The notes beneath the pieces are model-generated. The model was not told where the DNA came from. It made no database searches and saw nothing but the letters and a program-made list of their open reading frames with translations. Of a DNA stretch of 58,022 nucleotides, positions 51,515 through 58,022 are shown one piece after another. How positions within the stretch are numbered: position 1 is the first letter of the stretch; each line of letters opens with the position of its first letter. The position numbers and the translations under genes were made by a program. This stretch comes from Phycisphaerae bacterium. Lineage in GTDB: Bacteria; Planctomycetota; Phycisphaerae; UBA1845; PWPN01. Location: NCBI GenBank assembly GCA_018003015.1, contig JAGNEZ010000041.1, positions 1-58,022 of the forward strand, read 5' to 3'.

Positions 51515-53506
51515 CTAGAGGGCCATCACTTCCGCGAAAACCTGGTCGTTGGTGTAACCCTGCAGGTCGATGGACTTCGACCGGCACAGGGCCACGCATG
51601 TGCCGCAGCCTTGGCAGACGCCGGCGTTGATCTTGGCCACCGTCTTGATCAGCTGACCGTCGCGTCCACGGATCTCCTCCCGCTCGATGGCCTTGTACGG
51701 ACAGGCCGACTCACACAGGAAGCAGCCCACGCAGGTCGAGAAAAGCGGCGGCACAGAACGATTGACCACCGCGATGATCGGCTCGCGCAACAGCTCCGAC
51801 TGCGAGAAGAGACCGGCGACCTTCGCCGCCGCGGCCGAGGCCTGGGCCACGCTCTCGGGAATGTCCTTGGGGGCTTGGCAGGCGCCGGCCACCATGATCC
51901 CTGCCGTGTTCGTCTCCACCGGCTTGAGCTTCGGGTGAGCTTCCGAAAGGAAGTAGTAGGGGTCGTAGCTGACCTTGAGCGTCTGGGCAAGCTGCTCGGC
52001 CCCGGGACTGGCAACCATGGCGCTGGCCAGCACAACCATGTCCGCCTTGATCTCGAGCGGTTTGCCGCCCAGCAGGGTGTCGGCCCCCTTGACGATCAGT
52101 TGACCGTCCTCCTCGTAGATCCGAGCGACGCGGCCGCGCACGTACTTGACCCCGTCTTCCTCGATCGCCCGGCGGACAAACTCCTCGTACATCTTGCCGC
52201 CCGCGCGGATGTCCATGTAGAAAACGTAGGCCTTCCCGCTGTGCACCTTGTGCTTGTACAACATCGCATGCTTGGCGGTGTACATGCAGCAGATCTTCGA
52301 GCAGTAGTCGATGCCCTTGGCGGGATCGCGCGAACCGGCACAGGCGATGAACACCACCGTCTCCGGCGTCTTGCCGTCCGACGGCCGTTTCATCACGCCC
52401 TGGGTGGGACCCGAGGCCGAGGCCAGACGCTCGAACTGCAGGCCGGTGATCACGTCTTTGTACTTGCCGTACCCGTATTCCGGGAAGAAGTCGGTGCCCT
52501 TGACCTCGTAGCCCGTGGCCGCCACGATCGCTCCGATGTCGTGCTCCACGATCTCATCCTGCTGATCGTAGCGGATGGCCTTGGTCGGACAGACCTTCTC
52601 GCAGATCTTGCACTTGCCCTTGAGGAAGAATGTGCAGCGCTCGCGGTCGATCACCGGCTTGTTGGGCACGGCCTGCGGGAAAGGTACGTAGATCGCACCC
52701 CGCAGTCCCAGCTGGGCGTTGAACTCGCTGGGAATCCGCTTGTTCGGACATTTCTGGGTGCAGAGCCCACAACCGGTGCAGAGCTTCTCGTCGACGCCGC
52801 GGGCCTTCTTCCGGATCCGCACCTTGAAGTTGCCGATGAAACCCTCCACCCTCTCCAGTTCGGAGTACGTGTACAGCGTGATGTTCGGGTGCCGGGCGGC
52901 CTCAACCATGCGCGGGGTCAGGATGCACTGCGAGCAGTCCAGCGTCGGAAAAGTCTCCGAAAGCTGGGCCATGTGCCCGCCAATCGAGGGCTCGCGCTCG
53001 ACCATGACCACCTTGTGACCGGCGTTGGCAATGTCCAGAGCCGCCTGGATGCCGGCGATCCCACCACCCAGCACCAGGGCAGTCTTGGTCACCGGAACCT
53101 TGATCGGGTACAGCGGCCGGTTCCGCCTGACCTTCTCGGCCATGACCCGCACCAGGTCAATGGCCTTGTCCGTGGTCTCCGGCGTCCGCTCGTGAACCCA
53201 GGAGCAGTGCTCCCGGAGATTGGCCATCTCGCAGAGGAATGGGTTCAGCCCGGCCTCGGCGCACGCCCGGCGGAAGGTCGGCTCGTGCATGCGCGGAGAA
53301 CAGGCGGCCACGACCACGCCAGTCAGCTTCTGGTCGCGAATCGCCTCCTTGATCATGTTCTGCCCGGGATCCGAACACATGTACTTGTAGTCGGTGCTCA
53401 CCACTACCCCGGGGAGGTCGCCGCAGGACTTGGCCACGGCCGCACAGTCCACGGTCGCGCCGATGTTCTCACCACAGTGGCAAACGAAAACTCCGATTCG
53501 CGACAT
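51515..53506 (-). CDS. hdrA: HdrA: FAD-containing bifurcating subunit
   Basis: The 663-residue protein has an N-terminal FVCHCGENIG cluster domain, FAD-binding motif LVLGGGIAGIQAA, and ferredoxin-like cysteine motifs (CTGCGLCTQKCP; CKICEKVCP; CVGCFLCESACP; CQGCGTCVALC). The C-terminal part has two more [4Fe-4S] clusters. In methanogens HdrA is the site of flavin-based electron bifurcation, coupling heterodisulfide reduction to ferredoxin reduction. Its start overlaps the hdrB stop by one base (TAATG). Bifurcating function here is by homology. Confidence 0.93.
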   Translation of the reverse strand: MSRIGVFVCHCGENIGATVDCAAVAKSCGDLPGVVVSTDYKYMCSDPGQNMIKEAIRDQKLTGVVVAACSPRMHEPTFRRACAEAGLNPFLCEMANLREHCSWVHERTPETTDKAIDLVRVMAEKVRRNRPLYPIKVPVTKTALVLGGGIAGIQAALDIANAGHKVVMVEREPSIGGHMAQLSETFPTLDCSQCILTPRMVEAARHPNITLYTYSELERVEGFIGNFKVRIRKKARGVDEKLCTGCGLCTQKCPNKRIPSEFNAQLGLRGAIYVPFPQAVPNKPVIDRERCTFFLKGKCKICEKVCPTKAIRYDQQDEIVEHDIGAIVAATGYEVKGTDFFPEYGYGKYKDVITGLQFERLASASGPTQGVMKRPSDGKTPETVVFIACAGSRDPAKGIDYCSKICCMYTAKHAMLYKHKVHSGKAYVFYMDIRAGGKMYEEFVRRAIEEDGVKYVRGRVARIYEEDGQLIVKGADTLLGGKPLEIKADMVVLASAMVASPGAEQLAQTLKVSYDPYYFLSEAHPKLKPVETNTAGIMVAGACQAPKDIPESVAQASAAAAKVAGLFSQSELLREPIIAVVNRSVPPLFSTCVGCFLCESACPYKAIEREEIRGRDGQLIKTVAKINAGVCQGCGTCVALCRSKSIDLQGYTNDQVFAEVMAL

Positions 53507-54429
53507 TAGTGTTCATCCTCCGTCGCACCCACCGGGGCCGCGGCCTCCCCATGCCCGGCACAGCAGCAACCCGCTTCCCGTGGCTCGGAAAAGACGACCG
53601 GCACGATGTGGCGATGCATCCCCAACGTCTGGTCATCCAGCCCCAGGGCCAGTCCAACCACCTGGCTGATGTACAGCACGGGAATGGAATACTGCCGGCC
53701 TTTGTGCTTCTCGATCGCTCCCCGCCGCAGGTCGAGATTCACATGGCACATCGGGCAGGCGACTACGATCGCTTCCGCCCCCCGGCGAACCGCATCGTCC
53801 ACGATCTTGCCCGAGAGCTTGGCCACCAGATCCGTCCGCGATACCGAAAAACCCGCCCCGCAGCACTCGGTCTTGTACGCCCAGTCGATCGGGTCCGCCC
53901 CCACCGCCTTCATGATCTCGTCCATGCTCTGCGGGTCTTCCACCCGGTCAAACTTCAGCACCTTGTGCGGCCGGACCAGGTAGCAGCCGTAGTAGCAGGC
54001 CACTTTACGCTTGAACGGATGACGTACCTTGTCCGACAGGCCACCCGCGCTAAACCGACCCAGAATCTCGAGCACGTTCAGCACCTTCGGCTTGCACTCC
54101 AGGTCCATCTCGATGATGCCGACGATCTTCTTGCGGAGCGTCTCGTCGGCCAGCAACTCGTGGCGAGTGATCGCCAGCCGGCTGTAACAGGCCGAGCAGG
54201 GAACAGCCAACTCCTCGATGCCGGCCTTCTCCGCCTGGGCGAGAATGCGGGCAGGCAGGGCCAGGGCCAGATCGTGGTTCAGGCTGTGGGCGGCACTCGC
54301 CCCGCAGCAATTCCAGTCCGGCACGTCCTGCCATTCGATGCCCAGCTGGACGGCTACCGCCCGCAGGGACTCCGCATACTCCCGCGAAGAACCCAGCAGA
54401 GAGCAGCCCGGATAGAGTCCTAATCTCAT
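53506..54429 (-). CDS. hdrB: HdrB: heterodisulfide reductase subunit with two CCG domains
   Basis: The 307-residue protein has two CCG domains: YPGCSL, NCCGAS, PCSACY, and then YYGCYL, ECCGAG, CPMCHVNLD. These bind the noncubane [4Fe-4S] clusters that reduce the disulfide substrate. A His/Cys-rich tail (REAGCCCAGHGE) follows. The natural substrate in bacteria is not CoM-S-S-CoB; in sulfate reducers a DsrC-type protein is proposed, and the substrate here is unknown. It overlaps hdrC by four bases. Confidence 0.93.
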   Translation of the reverse strand: MRLGLYPGCSLLGSSREYAESLRAVAVQLGIEWQDVPDWNCCGASAAHSLNHDLALALPARILAQAEKAGIEELAVPCSACYSRLAITRHELLADETLRKKIVGIIEMDLECKPKVLNVLEILGRFSAGGLSDKVRHPFKRKVACYYGCYLVRPHKVLKFDRVEDPQSMDEIMKAVGADPIDWAYKTECCGAGFSVSRTDLVAKLSGKIVDDAVRRGAEAIVVACPMCHVNLDLRRGAIEKHKGRQYSIPVLYISQVVGLALGLDDQTLGMHRHIVPVVFSEPREAGCCCAGHGEAAAPVGATEDEH

Positions 54430-55007
54430 TCGTGGTTGTCCTTCCGTTGGGAGGTCAGGTGGAAGATCCGCGACATGGCCGCTCGCCCCTCGATCAGGTG
54501 AGGCAGGAATTTCATCTTCCCTCGCTTGAGCAGCTTCGGCACCGCGGTCAAATCCTGGAGGAAGTGCCAGGAGCGAGTCTTGTAGTCCGAGATCAGGCCG
54601 ACCTCATACAGACGACCGGTGTACTTGATGCAGTCCAAGAACGACTTGTGGAACGCCAGGATGTCCTTGGCCTTGGGATTGACCATGCCCCTGGCCATCG
54701 ATTCGCTGCGGAGGTACTCCATGACCTTGGCCAGATCAACCTCCTTGGGACACCGCGAATGACAGGTCTCGCAGGTCAGGCACAGCCAGATGGCCTCCGA
54801 GCGCAGGGCCCGCTCCTCCATCTCCTTGCTACCCAGCTGGAGCAGGTGAAGGATCTGGCTCGGCGAGTAGTCCATCTCCTCGGCCAGCGGGCAACCGGCG
54901 GAACACTTGCCACACTGGTAACACTGAGCGGCCGATTCCCCGGTCGATTCCAGCACCCGGTCCGCGAGGCTGGCCGGCTGATGAAGCTCATGAACAGCTT
55001 GTGACAT
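54426..55007 (-). CDS. hdrC: HdrC: iron-sulfur subunit of heterodisulfide reductase
   Basis: The 193-residue protein carries two [4Fe-4S] motifs (CYQCGKCSAGCP, about 29-40, and CLTCETCHSRCP, about 76-87), then a helical C-terminus. HdrC passes electrons between HdrA and HdrB. It is the first gene of the operon, with GGGGAGTAA about 11 bases before ATG 55007. A promoter and inverted repeat lie just upstream. Confidence 0.92.
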   Translation of the reverse strand: MSQAVHELHQPASLADRVLESTGESAAQCYQCGKCSAGCPLAEEMDYSPSQILHLLQLGSKEMEERALRSEAIWLCLTCETCHSRCPKEVDLAKVMEYLRSESMARGMVNPKAKDILAFHKSFLDCIKYTGRLYEVGLISDYKTRSWHFLQDLTAVPKLLKRGKMKFLPHLIEGRAAMSRIFHLTSQRKDNHE

Positions 55008-55041
55008 GGCGTCGGGTTACTCCCCAATGGTTGTTACAGAC

Positions 55042-55070
55042 ATCCTATAAGTGCCTTCACGATATCGCAA
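55042..55070 (-). promoter_or_regulatory. Promoter of hdrCBA-flxDCBA
   Basis: Minus strand TTGCGA (55070-55065), 17 bases, TAGGAT (55047-55042); each matches four of six. The leader would be about 28 bases. An inverted repeat overlaps it. This is the only promoter-like pair upstream of hdrC. Confidence 0.5.
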
Positions 55071-55084
55071 GGGCCAATCGTGAA
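55056..55084. promoter_or_regulatory. Inverted repeat at the hdr promoter, candidate operator
   Basis: TTCACGAT (55056-55063) and ATCGTGAA (55077-55084) are perfect 8-base inverted arms with a 13-base gap. They bracket the -35 element. No T-tract follows in either direction, so it is more likely a protein-binding site than a terminator. Confidence 0.55.
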
Positions 55085-55173
55085 AAAAGGCACCGTCTTC
55101 CGCACCCTCCCCGAACCATGCGAACACCTACCTTACAGTACGACCAGACAAGCTGTGAGAACACAGGTTCCAC

Positions 55174-55195
55174 AAAAAAAGTGGTCTAACAGACC
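55174..55195 (-). terminator. Intrinsic terminator, minus strand
   Basis: On the minus strand GGTCT-GTT-AGACC forms a tight hairpin, followed by AC and seven T. It should stop minus-strand transcripts arriving from the beta-helix gene and thereby isolate the hdr operon. The stem is five pairs, so moderately strong. Confidence 0.6.
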
Positions 55196-55337
55196 GTGGT
55201 GGGGCGGCAATCCGTAGCACCGCTGGGACAATGGTTTATCGCACTCAAGCCGTGCCTGATCTCAGGGGTAGTCACAGGGGATCACGAAAACCACCGGATT
55301 CGATTTGCCCGGACCCGATTCCTGTTGTACATAGACT

Positions 55338-56372
55338 GTGCGACGTGAAGGTCGCGAACGCTTGACACCTCAAGCAGTCCCGGCAGCTCCGGTAGGATGT
55401 GCCGCGAGGTCCGAAGGACATGCGGCGGTCGGCGGCAACGCACGACGGCACGTCCGGTGAACTCATAGCCAGGGCTTCGGCAGGTCCGAATGTTCGGGAC
55501 GAGGCGGGTGTGAAAACCCTCTAAGGGTCGCTCCAGTCGCTCCGGCTGCTTGCGGTCAGAGATCCGAGTGGGGCCAAGCGACGGCTGATCGATACTCTGT
55601 GGCGCCGACCGGCGGCGCGACCGTCCCCCGCGGACGGCGGCTCCTCCGGGTGAAGCGCGAGAGAGGAGATCGGGCGAAATCCCGGTCAAGGCCGTCGCCG
55701 GTGTGCCCTCGAAGGGGAAACCCAGGGGAGCATCCAGCGCCCGGCACGCTAAACACGTGTCCGGTCGCCAGGGACTTCCGGAAGGGTCGAATCCCAGGAA
55801 CCGCGGCCTGCGGGGCCGACCACGTGGCTTCGGCCGTGTGGTTGATCCGTTGGCGAAACGGTAGGTGGGTGCACTCGGGCGGCAACGCCCGCGTACCTTT
55901 CGGGAGGAGAACGCTCCGAAGGGTGAATCCCATGAGCGCTGCCGGGTTGAAACAAAACCGGCGCGGGACCGAAGGGAGAAAACCGTCAAGAGGGTAGCCA
56001 AACCCTGAAGGCGGAACGTAGCGGGCAGGCAAAGCCCGCGCTGAGTGGACCTCCGGTTCCTCAAGTGCTGTAGGGAGCGAAAGCCCATGAGAGGAGCCCT
56101 CCGCCGCGGCGGTCGGCTAGGTGGATCGGGTGATGGCTCTGGAGGAAGGCTGAACTCGAAGAGAGGGTGGGACTGGTGGTTTAACTACTTCCAGACCTGT
56201 CCGTTGAGGGAAAACCACACAGCCGGGCGAAATGGCACAACGGCACAGTGGGATCGCTTGACCAAGAGAGCGATACTTCACCGGATGCGGAACTCTGAAC
56301 GAGCGGCTAATTCCGAGAGCAGGCCCAACGGCGGCGACGCCCAGGGCAAACCGATAAACCGAATACTCTGAA
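55338..56372 (+). ncRNA. Large structured non-coding RNA, class unknown (group II intron-like 5' end)
   Basis: No believable protein is encoded here; instead local inverted repeats follow each other. Clear ones: CCGC/GCGG with inner TCC-GAA-GGA (55402-55425); GGG-GAAA-CCC (55714-55723); CCACGTGGC-UUCG-GCCGTGTGG (55820-55841); GGGCG-GCAA-CGCCC (55877-55890); GCGGGC/GCCCGC (56021-56039); GTGGTTT/AAACCAC (56176-56218); ATCGCT/AGCGAT (56253-56274); CGGAA/TTCCG (56288-56315). GNRA and UUCG loops occur on the plus strand only as such, giving the direction. The 5' end is set at GTGCGAC, which resembles group II introns, but no domain V or reverse transcriptase is seen. Ends are approximate. Confidence 0.6.
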
Positions 56373-56381
56373 GGGCCCGAA

Positions 56382-56411
56382 AACGTTCGCTTCTTCACGT
56401 CGTTCTTTTTT
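56382..56411 (+). terminator. Possible 3' end of the structured RNA
   Basis: AACG (56382-56385) can pair with CGTT (56401-56404), followed by C and six T (56406-56411). The stem is only four pairs and the loop long, so this is weak, but it is the first T-tract after the structured region. Confidence 0.3.
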
Positions 56412-56605
56412 GCGCCGAGTTCGCCCTGCACCCTGCTCGCCATGCAACACCTTCCAGCGAACCCCCCCGGGTAGCCAAAGTCGATCAACAACCTGGAAGA
56501 AGCCCTGTCAGGGTCTCGCCGCCGTGCGAAGGTGGTACCTGTGACCTCGCCCGCTTCCCCAGACGGCTGATCGCTCACCGTTTCTGAGAGCTGACTCCTC
56601 CTCAT

Positions 56606-58022
56606 TCAGTCGCCGCAACCTGTATCTGCGGCCCTATCCTCTCCGGAAAAACACCGCTGCAGGAAGCCGAAGTCCGACTGATCCACGTCGCCGTCCTTGT
56701 CGAAGTCGGCCTTGGCACAGTTGCCCGCATGGGGCACGGCCGGTCCGGCAACGCAGGCGGCGAACGTCTTCATGTCTTCTGTGTCGATATCCCCATCTCG
56801 GTCGAAGTCGCCGAGGATGTACTCATGAGCGCCAATGTCCACGATGGGTGCGGTGCCGAGGCCAGTGTCAACCGTGATCGGATCGTTGAAGAAACGCGGC
56901 AGGCTGCCTAGATCGGTTAGGATGCGGGGGGGCACGGCGCCGTTGTCGCCGGCGTCGATGCAGGGCGAGCCGGCCCTCAGGTGCAGGTCGCCCAGGTCAT
57001 CGTCGGCAGTACCCCATTTTCCATCCACTCCAGCAGTCGGCGACAGAACCAATTGCGGGTCGGCAGAGATGTTGCCATCGGTGCCCGTGGGGTTGGCCAC
57101 GCCGGAGTAGTTGTAGGCGGTATTGCCGTAGACGCAGTTGTACCGAAGGTTCGACCCAGACCCGGACGCGCAAATCCCCGAGGAGTTGAACGCGACGATC
57201 GTGTTGGTGATCGTCGGGGAGGAATAGTGGCAGTGGATTCCGCCGCCGTCGCAGTCAGAGTCGGTTCCGGTTAAGGCATTCCCTGTGATGGTGTCGTTCG
57301 AGATCGTCGGCGAGCCGCCGGAACAGTAGATTCCACCGCCGCAGGAACTGCTCGTTCCGTCTGCGATGTTGCCGGTGATCATGTTGTTCGAGATCTTCGG
57401 CGAGCCACCGAAGCAGTAGATCCCGCCGCCGTAGGCCTGACGCCCGATTGCGCTGTTCCCCGTGACCGCGTTATTCGAGATCGCTGGCGACCCGCCGGCG
57501 CAGTAGATCCCGCCGCCGGGGGCGTATAGCCCGGTCACGCTGTTTCCCGTGATCGTGTTGTTGGCAATCGTGGGAGAGGAAGAGTCGCAGCAGATTCCGC
57601 CGCCCGCCTTGGTGGCTTTGCCGTTGCGGATGGTGAAGCCGTCCACGGTACCCAGTTCACTACCGAACGGCACGCTCACCACGCTGCCGCCGGCGTTGCC
57701 GTCCAGAATCGTCACGTGGGCAACCCAGTCCCGCTGGTCCCGGCGGAACTCCGTTCCCGCAAAGCCGCCGTACACGTGGACGCACGCCTCTAAGGTGATC
57801 CGTTCGGTGTACGTGCCCGCCGCCACCCACACGTCACCGCCGCCAGGGCCTGCGATGGCGTTGATGCCCGCCTGCACCGTCCGCTTGGCCAGTTCCCAGC
57901 TCGAACCGTCATGGTCATCGTTGCCCGAAGGGCTCACCCGAACGACCCTTAGCGTGAACGAAGGCGTCGTCCCGTCGAACTCGTCCGCTCCGATGTCCAC
58001 GCGTCCGCCCTGATCTCGCCGC
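56606..58022 (-). CDS. Secreted parallel beta-helix protein with dockerin-like tag, partial (N-terminus beyond right edge)
   Basis: The frame is open through the right edge with no start; the visible 5' end encodes GGRVDIGADEFDG, a linker usual between repeats in such proteins, so more domains precede it. Visible parts: a DUF1565-like opening (VRVSPSGNDDHDGSSW), a right-handed beta-helix with about five near-identical coils (GGGIYCSGGSPTISN type), then SPCIDAGDNG and VDIGAHEY, and a C-terminal pair of EF-hand-like loops (DFDRDGDIDTED and DFDKDGDVDQSDF) with CFSG. It is probably an extracellular adhesin or carbohydrate-active protein. Function beyond fold unknown. Confidence 0.8.
   Translation of the reverse strand, partial: RRDQGGRVDIGADEFDGTTPSFTLRVVRVSPSGNDDHDGSSWELAKRTVQAGINAIAGPGGGDVWVAAGTYTERITLEACVHVYGGFAGTEFRRDQRDWVAHVTILDGNAGGSVVSVPFGSELGTVDGFTIRNGKATKAGGGICCDSSSPTIANNTITGNSVTGLYAPGGGIYCAGGSPAISNNAVTGNSAIGRQAYGGGIYCFGGSPKISNNMITGNIADGTSSSCGGGIYCSGGSPTISNDTITGNALTGTDSDCDGGGIHCHYSSPTITNTIVAFNSSGICASGSGSNLRYNCVYGNTAYNYSGVANPTGTDGNISADPQLVLSPTAGVDGKWGTADDDLGDLHLRAGSPCIDAGDNGAVPPRILTDLGSLPRFFNDPITVDTGLGTAPIVDIGAHEYILGDFDRDGDIDTEDMKTFAACVAGPAVPHAGNCAKADFDKDGDVDQSDFGFLQRCFSGEDRAADTGCGD

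Follow-up and report, generated by a model that had tools for sequence, protein, structure and literature searches.

We describe here a non-coding RNA of about 1,073 nt, encoded at positions 55339..56411 of the plus strand of the 58,022-nt stretch of DNA that was analysed (the window), and we consider, with a probability of roughly 0.55, that it is the product of an independent gene for a structural RNA of about 1.07 kb, of a class absent from Rfam, with a role as a scaffold. The comparison of homologous sequences establishes a conserved fold with defined ends, five arms, four like modules and internal loops in the P1 and P4 helices. Start and end were taken from the block conserved in the alignment of 30 to 46 homologues; conservation stops outside ~55339 to ~56411, the flanks are not conserved, and the length is nearly constant (1049-1111 nt in 30 members). 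The initial annotation had seen here a structured plus-strand RNA of about 1 kb, which the analysis confirms and finds to have been understated. Of the borders it gave (55338-56372), the start was about right, and the end cut off one half of a stem (56393-56403) together with the U-run behind it. Its second suggestion, a large RNA of some other, unknown class, is now strongly supported by covariation in 46 homologues, by the lack of an Rfam match and by deep conservation.

The fold is much more stable than expected from composition. As a single sequence, 55338-56411 (+) reaches -509.7 kcal/mol versus -464.5 +/- 8.4 for dinucleotide shuffles (z = -5.4), whereas z is -2.4 on the minus strand and ranges from +1.6 to -3.0 in ten control stretches of the window. 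The consensus fold, computed with RNAalifold on 30 and then on 46 homologues, comprises about 305 pairs from end to end, and 17 hairpins in the 46-homologue version. The covariation test that the initial annotation had proposed was carried out in an R-scape-like manner (G-test with APC), with nulls made of 20 alignments that preserve the tree and, branch by branch, how many substitutions of each kind occurred. In the 46 aligned homologues, 59 of the 305 consensus pairs are significant (E<=0.05). Of about 568,000 column pairs, the 25 that covary most strongly include 22 that fall inside the structure. We also built a covariance model, R1, of the most conserved 170 nt, which serves as evidence for module C (see below). 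Its 38 core matches, drawn from the whole phylum, show 96.4% standard pairs versus 72.7% after shuffling and 353 double changes versus 104, in an alignment that was fitted to R1 and so leans to it, which is not the case of the 46-sequence alignment. None of 500 shuffles reaches 96.4%, and when the partners are slid, pairing is only 40-49% (maximum 48.5%). Some long stretches, such as 55988-56014, are near-invariant, and a search for pseudoknots found no run of covarying canonical pairs among the unpaired columns. The tetraloop hairpins that had been noticed in the sequence are real, though about six in number rather than at least eight: in the 46-homologue consensus, GNRA-type loops lie at 55434-55439, 55881-55886 and 56333-56338 (+), and UNCG-type loops at 55387-55392, 55828-55833 and 56104-56109 (+). 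The hairpin singled out at 55820-55841 exists as well, although it covaries only weakly (79% canonical, none of its pairs significant).

Both ends of the RNA are brought together by a closing stem. Its 5' half (55340..55364, +), made of 55340-55351 and 55359-55364, pairs with 56380-56403, with 88-90% canonical pairs and compensatory changes, while its 3' half (56380-56385 and 56393-56403) and the U-run at 56404-56411 together form a terminator-like element (56380..56411, +), the stem of which is re-paired in relatives. In the window, GCGACGUGAAGG at the 5' end has CUUCACGUCG, close to the 3' end, as its partner; among the relatives, the two halves co-vary (for instance GCUACUGAAUGG with CCAUUCAGCAGC, and GCAGGCCGAAAGG with CCUUCGGCCUG) and are almost always followed on the 3' side by a T-rich run. 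Upstream lies a promoter-like site (55305..55333, +), consisting of TTGCCC at 55305, a 17-nt spacer and TACATA at 55328-55333, in which TTG and TA are conserved in the alignment, and its -10-like box stands about 6-10 nt from the 5' end of the RNA. The relatives carry a clearer -35 and an extended -10 (GTGCTATATT) immediately 5' of the RNA, with patterns such as TTGACG-N17-TATATT, and a strict promoter-consensus scan of the window gave no strong site. Since a promoter-like start is combined with ends that pair with each other and with a U-run, an independent transcript, and not an intron, is the simplest reading, and the RNA is probably transcribed from its own promoter through to the terminator.

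The closing stem encloses a ring, in which five arms, namely domain 0 and modules A to D, radiate from one central junction and are joined by A-rich linkers, mostly of the GAA type. Domain 0 (55365..55511, +) is the first arm, and its helices have 1-3 significant pairs each. The four others share an identical five-helix topology, although the consensus was made without any assumption of symmetry: a P1 of the form CCC...GGG, broken by a 3x3 loop, is followed by the hairpin P2 and by a P3 of 9-11 bp, beyond which a second junction carries P4, also interrupted by a 3x3 loop, and the hairpin P5. Module A (55517..55715, +) is composed of P1 (55517-55528/55705-55715), P2 (55530-55574), P3 (55578-55586/55690-55698), P4 (55595-55605/55655-55665) and P5 (55668-55687), and module B (55720..55924, +) of P1 (55720-55731/55913-55924), P2 (55734-55772), P3 (55775-55785/55896-55906), P4 (55792-55803/55859-55870) and P5 (55874-55893). 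Module C (55928..56076, +), with P1 (55928-55939/56065-56076), P2 (55941-55962), P3 (55965-55975/56050-56060), P4 (55983-55995/56002-56014) and P5 (56021-56039), is the most widely conserved part, as seen from R1 and from phylum-wide pairing. Module D (56083..56376, +) is enlarged by nested arms and holds P1 (56083-56093/56366-56376), P2 (56096-56117), P3 (56120-56129/56351-56360), P4 (56137-56147/56311-56319) and P5 (56322-56348). As for modules A, B and D, the delineation comes from the consensus fold and from covariation.

The same ring of domain 0 and modules A to D was found in two families from elsewhere in the phylum, f80 (7 members) and f37 (5 members), which were aligned and folded separately, and all of their members (7/7 and 5/5) have homopurine loops at the four P1 positions. 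A variable number of modules, which had been suspected at the loci L205 and L209, is not claimed, as f80 and f37 show the same four modules. The likeness extends to sequence in four distant members (351 kb searched), where the module C model also matches a neighbouring module, D or B, within one RNA (L205, E=5e-8; L207, 3e-4; L213, 8e-4; L209, 6e-3). In the window itself, this model does not recognise the sequences of modules A, B and D themselves and gives one off-register match, at 55640-55792 (E=0.0002), so the case for module homology is made there by topology, together with the distant members. The four modules thus have a common descent that is well supported in the distant members and inferred in the window, and their origin by internal duplication may be regarded as supported in part.

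Besides the four like modules, a second feature had escaped the initial annotation, namely a set of ten symmetric 3x3 internal loops with a common rule: A faces A, or G faces G, in the two outer mismatches, and any combination is allowed between them. In nine loops and 46 sequences, the same purine is present on both sides in 793 of 824 cells, with 6 A/G mixtures, and where both forms are present the partners switch together between A.A and G.G, in at least 48 events on the RNA tree over seven pairs. An A.A pair and a G.G pair, when symmetric, are nearly isosteric. The loops of the P1 helices lie, all on the plus strand, at 55521..55523 with 55710-55712 in module A (GG24/AA18 and AA24/GG15 in homologues), 55724..55726 with 55918-55920 in B, 55932..55934 with 56070-56072 in C (GG37/AA7) and 56087..56089 with 56370-56372 in D. 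The A-P1 loop of the window itself, CUA/CGA, is an exception to the rule. The P4 loops, also on the plus strand, lie at 55599..55601 with 55659-55661 in A, 55797..55799 with 55863-55865 in B, 55988..55990 with 56007-56009 in C (GG22/AA20, without any A/G mixture and with at least 9 switches on the tree) and 56141..56143 in D (GG31/AA11), where the partner is 56315, two partner bases being missing in the window. The arms of module D provide the last two, at 56159..56161 with 56297-56299 and at 56219..56221 with 56245-56247 (AA32/GG8 and AA28/GG15), again on the plus strand. Non-canonical pairs account for three of the strongest covarying ones in the whole alignment: 55988/56009 and 55523/55710 are of this A.A/G.G kind, and 55947/55956 is mainly a G.A/A.G switch. 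The G48.G71 pair of the HIV-1 RRE, which can reportedly be A.A (a result attributed to Bartel in 1991), offers a point of comparison. In stem IIB of that RNA, the non-canonical purine pairs G47-A73 and G48-G71 widen the major groove and make a site for an arginine-rich peptide (PMC4488727). The RRE is unrelated to the RNA described here, in which the non-canonical purine pairs sit in 3x3 loops present in about ten copies.

Relatives of the RNA were found by DNA search (E<=0.001) in 50 of 200 related genomes, mostly as matches of several hundred to 1,050 bases with ~68-76% identity, a few being short and possibly due to chance. In a set of 125 relatives, R1 detects a single copy in each of 47 (E from 1e-27 to 1e-53) and nothing at E<=0.001 in the remaining 78, and across the phylum it matches in 32 of 392 genomes. 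The RNA core occurs twice in each of three genomes (G241, G340 and G367), compared with a single copy in the order. The carriers identified in this analysis are metagenome assemblies. A genome-wide pattern scan of 84,980 species returned 38 stretches, all from Planctomycetota; as it used one exact pattern, diverged relatives in other phyla are still conceivable. The RNA tree tracks the GTDB family labels (9 label changes versus a mean of 23.4 when shuffled), which points to mostly vertical descent with losses, and the patchy presence shows that the RNA is dispensable for many lineages. Many planctomycete bacteria have nevertheless retained it over a very long time.

The genes around the RNA vary from family to family, and none adjoins it constantly, which speaks for action in trans. 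The hdr operon to which the initial annotation had drawn attention is present, with hdrA-, hdrB- and hdrC-like genes in a row at 51515-55007 (-), transcribed away from the RNA and encoding an Fe-S/FAD protein, a CCG domain protein and an Fe-S protein; this vicinity is incidental, since neighbours change with the family, and a link to the operon was discarded for that reason. On the other side, at 56606-58021 (-), lies a gene for a secreted-type protein with a DUF1565 and a dockerin domain, cut by the contig end. In 14 of the 47 carriers of the order, a PIN-PhoH ATPase gene is found directly upstream in the same direction, 195-640 nt from the RNA (L186, L187, L190-L195, L201, L203 and others), which could reflect old synteny or a functional link; other relatives have rnpA, a sigma-54 activator or a translational GTPase as neighbours. 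Two motifs recur upstream of the RNA. The palindrome TGACAnnnTGTCA, possibly a regulator site, is conserved 5' of the -35 box in L186, L189, L192, L196, L200 and L201, and the DnaA-box-like TTNTCCACA occurs in L206, L207, L208, L212, L236, L205, L217 and others but not in this window. DnaA-box-like motifs are enriched upstream, being found at 26 of 78 loci, as compared with 1.5% of the control stretches and, for shuffled motifs, 2.2 loci of 78 on average. An origin of replication, which these motifs in distant members had suggested, was rejected on the basis of the one complete genome with an informative skew (G018). There the RNA, at 1.80 Mb, is not at oriC, the GC-skew switch and dnaA both lying at ~2.2 Mb.

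Several other readings were weighed. A group II intron remnant, which the initial annotation had considered, would share with this RNA the GUGCGAC start, a size of ~1 kb and a multi-domain organization, but its likelihood is now negligible. The supposed intron start, GTGCGAC, is in fact the 5' half of the closing stem, at which relatives have GCTACTG, GCAGGCC or GCCACGG, and the ends pair ahead of a U-run, around an open multi-arm ring of repeated modules. No group II model of Rfam 15, domain V included, matches, whether at the gathering score or with the limit relaxed to E<10. The RNA contains no ORF for a reverse transcriptase or for any other protein that Pfam recognises, and no mobility is apparent, the copy search that had been proposed having found a single copy in the 6.86-Mb genome; ORF-less group II introns exist, so the missing reverse transcriptase would not by itself be decisive. 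Where an intron would have boundaries within a host transcript, this RNA has its own promoter-like site and terminator-like end. No more credible is a minus-strand protein gene that mimics an RNA. Its candidate is a frame of 268 aa (55282-56088, -), the largest over the RNA together with a sense frame of 132 aa, and several homologues also have long antisense frames; such frames often arise in G+C-rich structured DNA. Neither frame matches any Pfam family, the antisense one varies from 99 to 354 aa among homologues, which rules out a protein on either strand in keeping with the initial annotation, and the covariation follows the RNA helices, so that this reading is already refuted. The long antisense frames of the window and of the homologues are likely to have been annotated as hypothetical proteins. 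A phage-derived, RNA-only assembly of the ROOL or GOLLD sort would account for the comparable size and the ornate fold (PMC12286853), and it is very improbable: a DNA search of plasmid and phage records gave no match to the RNA, the pattern matches in IMG/VR are short chance ones of at most 14.5 bits, order members have one chromosomal copy and the tree follows the host family. A mobile or phage element in general was discarded on the same searches.

Two readings retain more weight. A large ribozyme acting in trans would be in line with the size, the complexity and the long near-invariant stretches, in all of which the RNA is like RNase P RNA or a group II intron, yet we hold it to be unlikely: no known ribozyme model resembles the RNA in the Rfam scan, RNase P RNA and tmRNA are separately present in carriers and non-carriers, and a single active site would not predict a four-fold repetition. 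A replacement of RNase P RNA or tmRNA was likewise rejected, since each of the nine genomes tested, whether carrier or non-carrier, has the normal genes at other places. As for 6S RNA, whose model is weak or absent in several genomes, a 1-kb RNA is not a plausible substitute; RF00013 has no match in the near-complete genomes G000, G003 and G015, and relatives show weak matches. Somewhat less unlikely, though still an outside candidate, is a regulatory RNA whose homopurine loops would sequester one RNA-binding regulator, as CsrB does with CsrA, without belonging to that family. Ten copies of one motif within one RNA speak for it, as do the conserved regulator-like motifs upstream (TGACAnnnTGTCA and TTNTCCACA), which suggest regulated expression. 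The likeness to CsrB and RsmZ lies in the many copies of one motif, with putative binding in the present case, but those RNAs are weakly conserved and carry their motifs as GGA hairpin loops, whereas here they are internal loops in a conserved fold; a sponge has no need to keep its length and topology constant throughout a phylum, and CsrB and RsmZ are less constrained. A scaffold RNA, binding protein or assembling with itself, is the most likely function that we infer. This role is putative, and several points stand against the explanation as a whole: the promoter is deduced from conservation and the consensus scan gave no strong site in the window, the near-invariant loop nucleotides could equally serve catalysis, presence is patchy (47/125 relatives), and two further families, f51 and f90 (3-4 sequences each), do not fold cleanly into the ring.

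The search with all Rfam models that had been proposed yielded no match to the RNA at gathering thresholds over the whole window (Rfam 15) and chance matches only at E<10 over 54800-56700. The class is thus new relative to Rfam 15, a comparison outside which stands the Rhodopirellula-1 motif, a candidate RNA listed for Planctomycetes with no Rfam accession (PMC2864571, Table 1). We found no description of the RNA in the open-access full-text literature; as subscription papers were outside this search, priority is not guaranteed. Its closest parallels are the ornate large RNAs, a loose group, and no membership test places the RNA in a known family, the covariance models of OLE, ROOL, GOLLD and HEARO giving no match in the Rfam 15 scan of the window. 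Like OLE, ROOL and GOLLD, it is large, elaborate, non-coding and independently folding, its function is not established and it may act as an assembly, as those three form homo-oligomers (PMC12286853). It is larger than OLE and ROOL (~600-660 nt), and it differs from the group by being chromosomal without a match in phage records and by its A.A/G.G-switching loops. The symmetry of ROOL and GOLLD arises from eight or fourteen chains, while here four like modules lie in one chain.

Under the scaffold reading, the RNA would fold compactly, its ring of like modules giving a particle of pseudo-four-fold symmetry, in which the repeated A.A/G.G loops would widen the major groove and could serve as equivalent docking sites, occupied either by a protein present in several copies or by further molecules of the same RNA. 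That a single chain with a tandemly quadrupled five-helix module makes such a closed particle, with all ten loops as equivalent docking sites, is a tentative proposal, for which we would give slightly less than even odds. Large complex bacterial RNAs are very few, and nearly all of those with a known role are central machines; this RNA is a further class, and it comes from a phylum whose cell biology is unusual. Its internally repeated architecture is solvable by cryo-EM, and its record of A.A and G.G replacements is a test case for non-canonical isostericity and for RNA structure prediction. If the proposal is true, this RNA of quadruplicated modules would be an RNA-encoded scaffold or container of a previously undescribed kind, used by planctomycetes.
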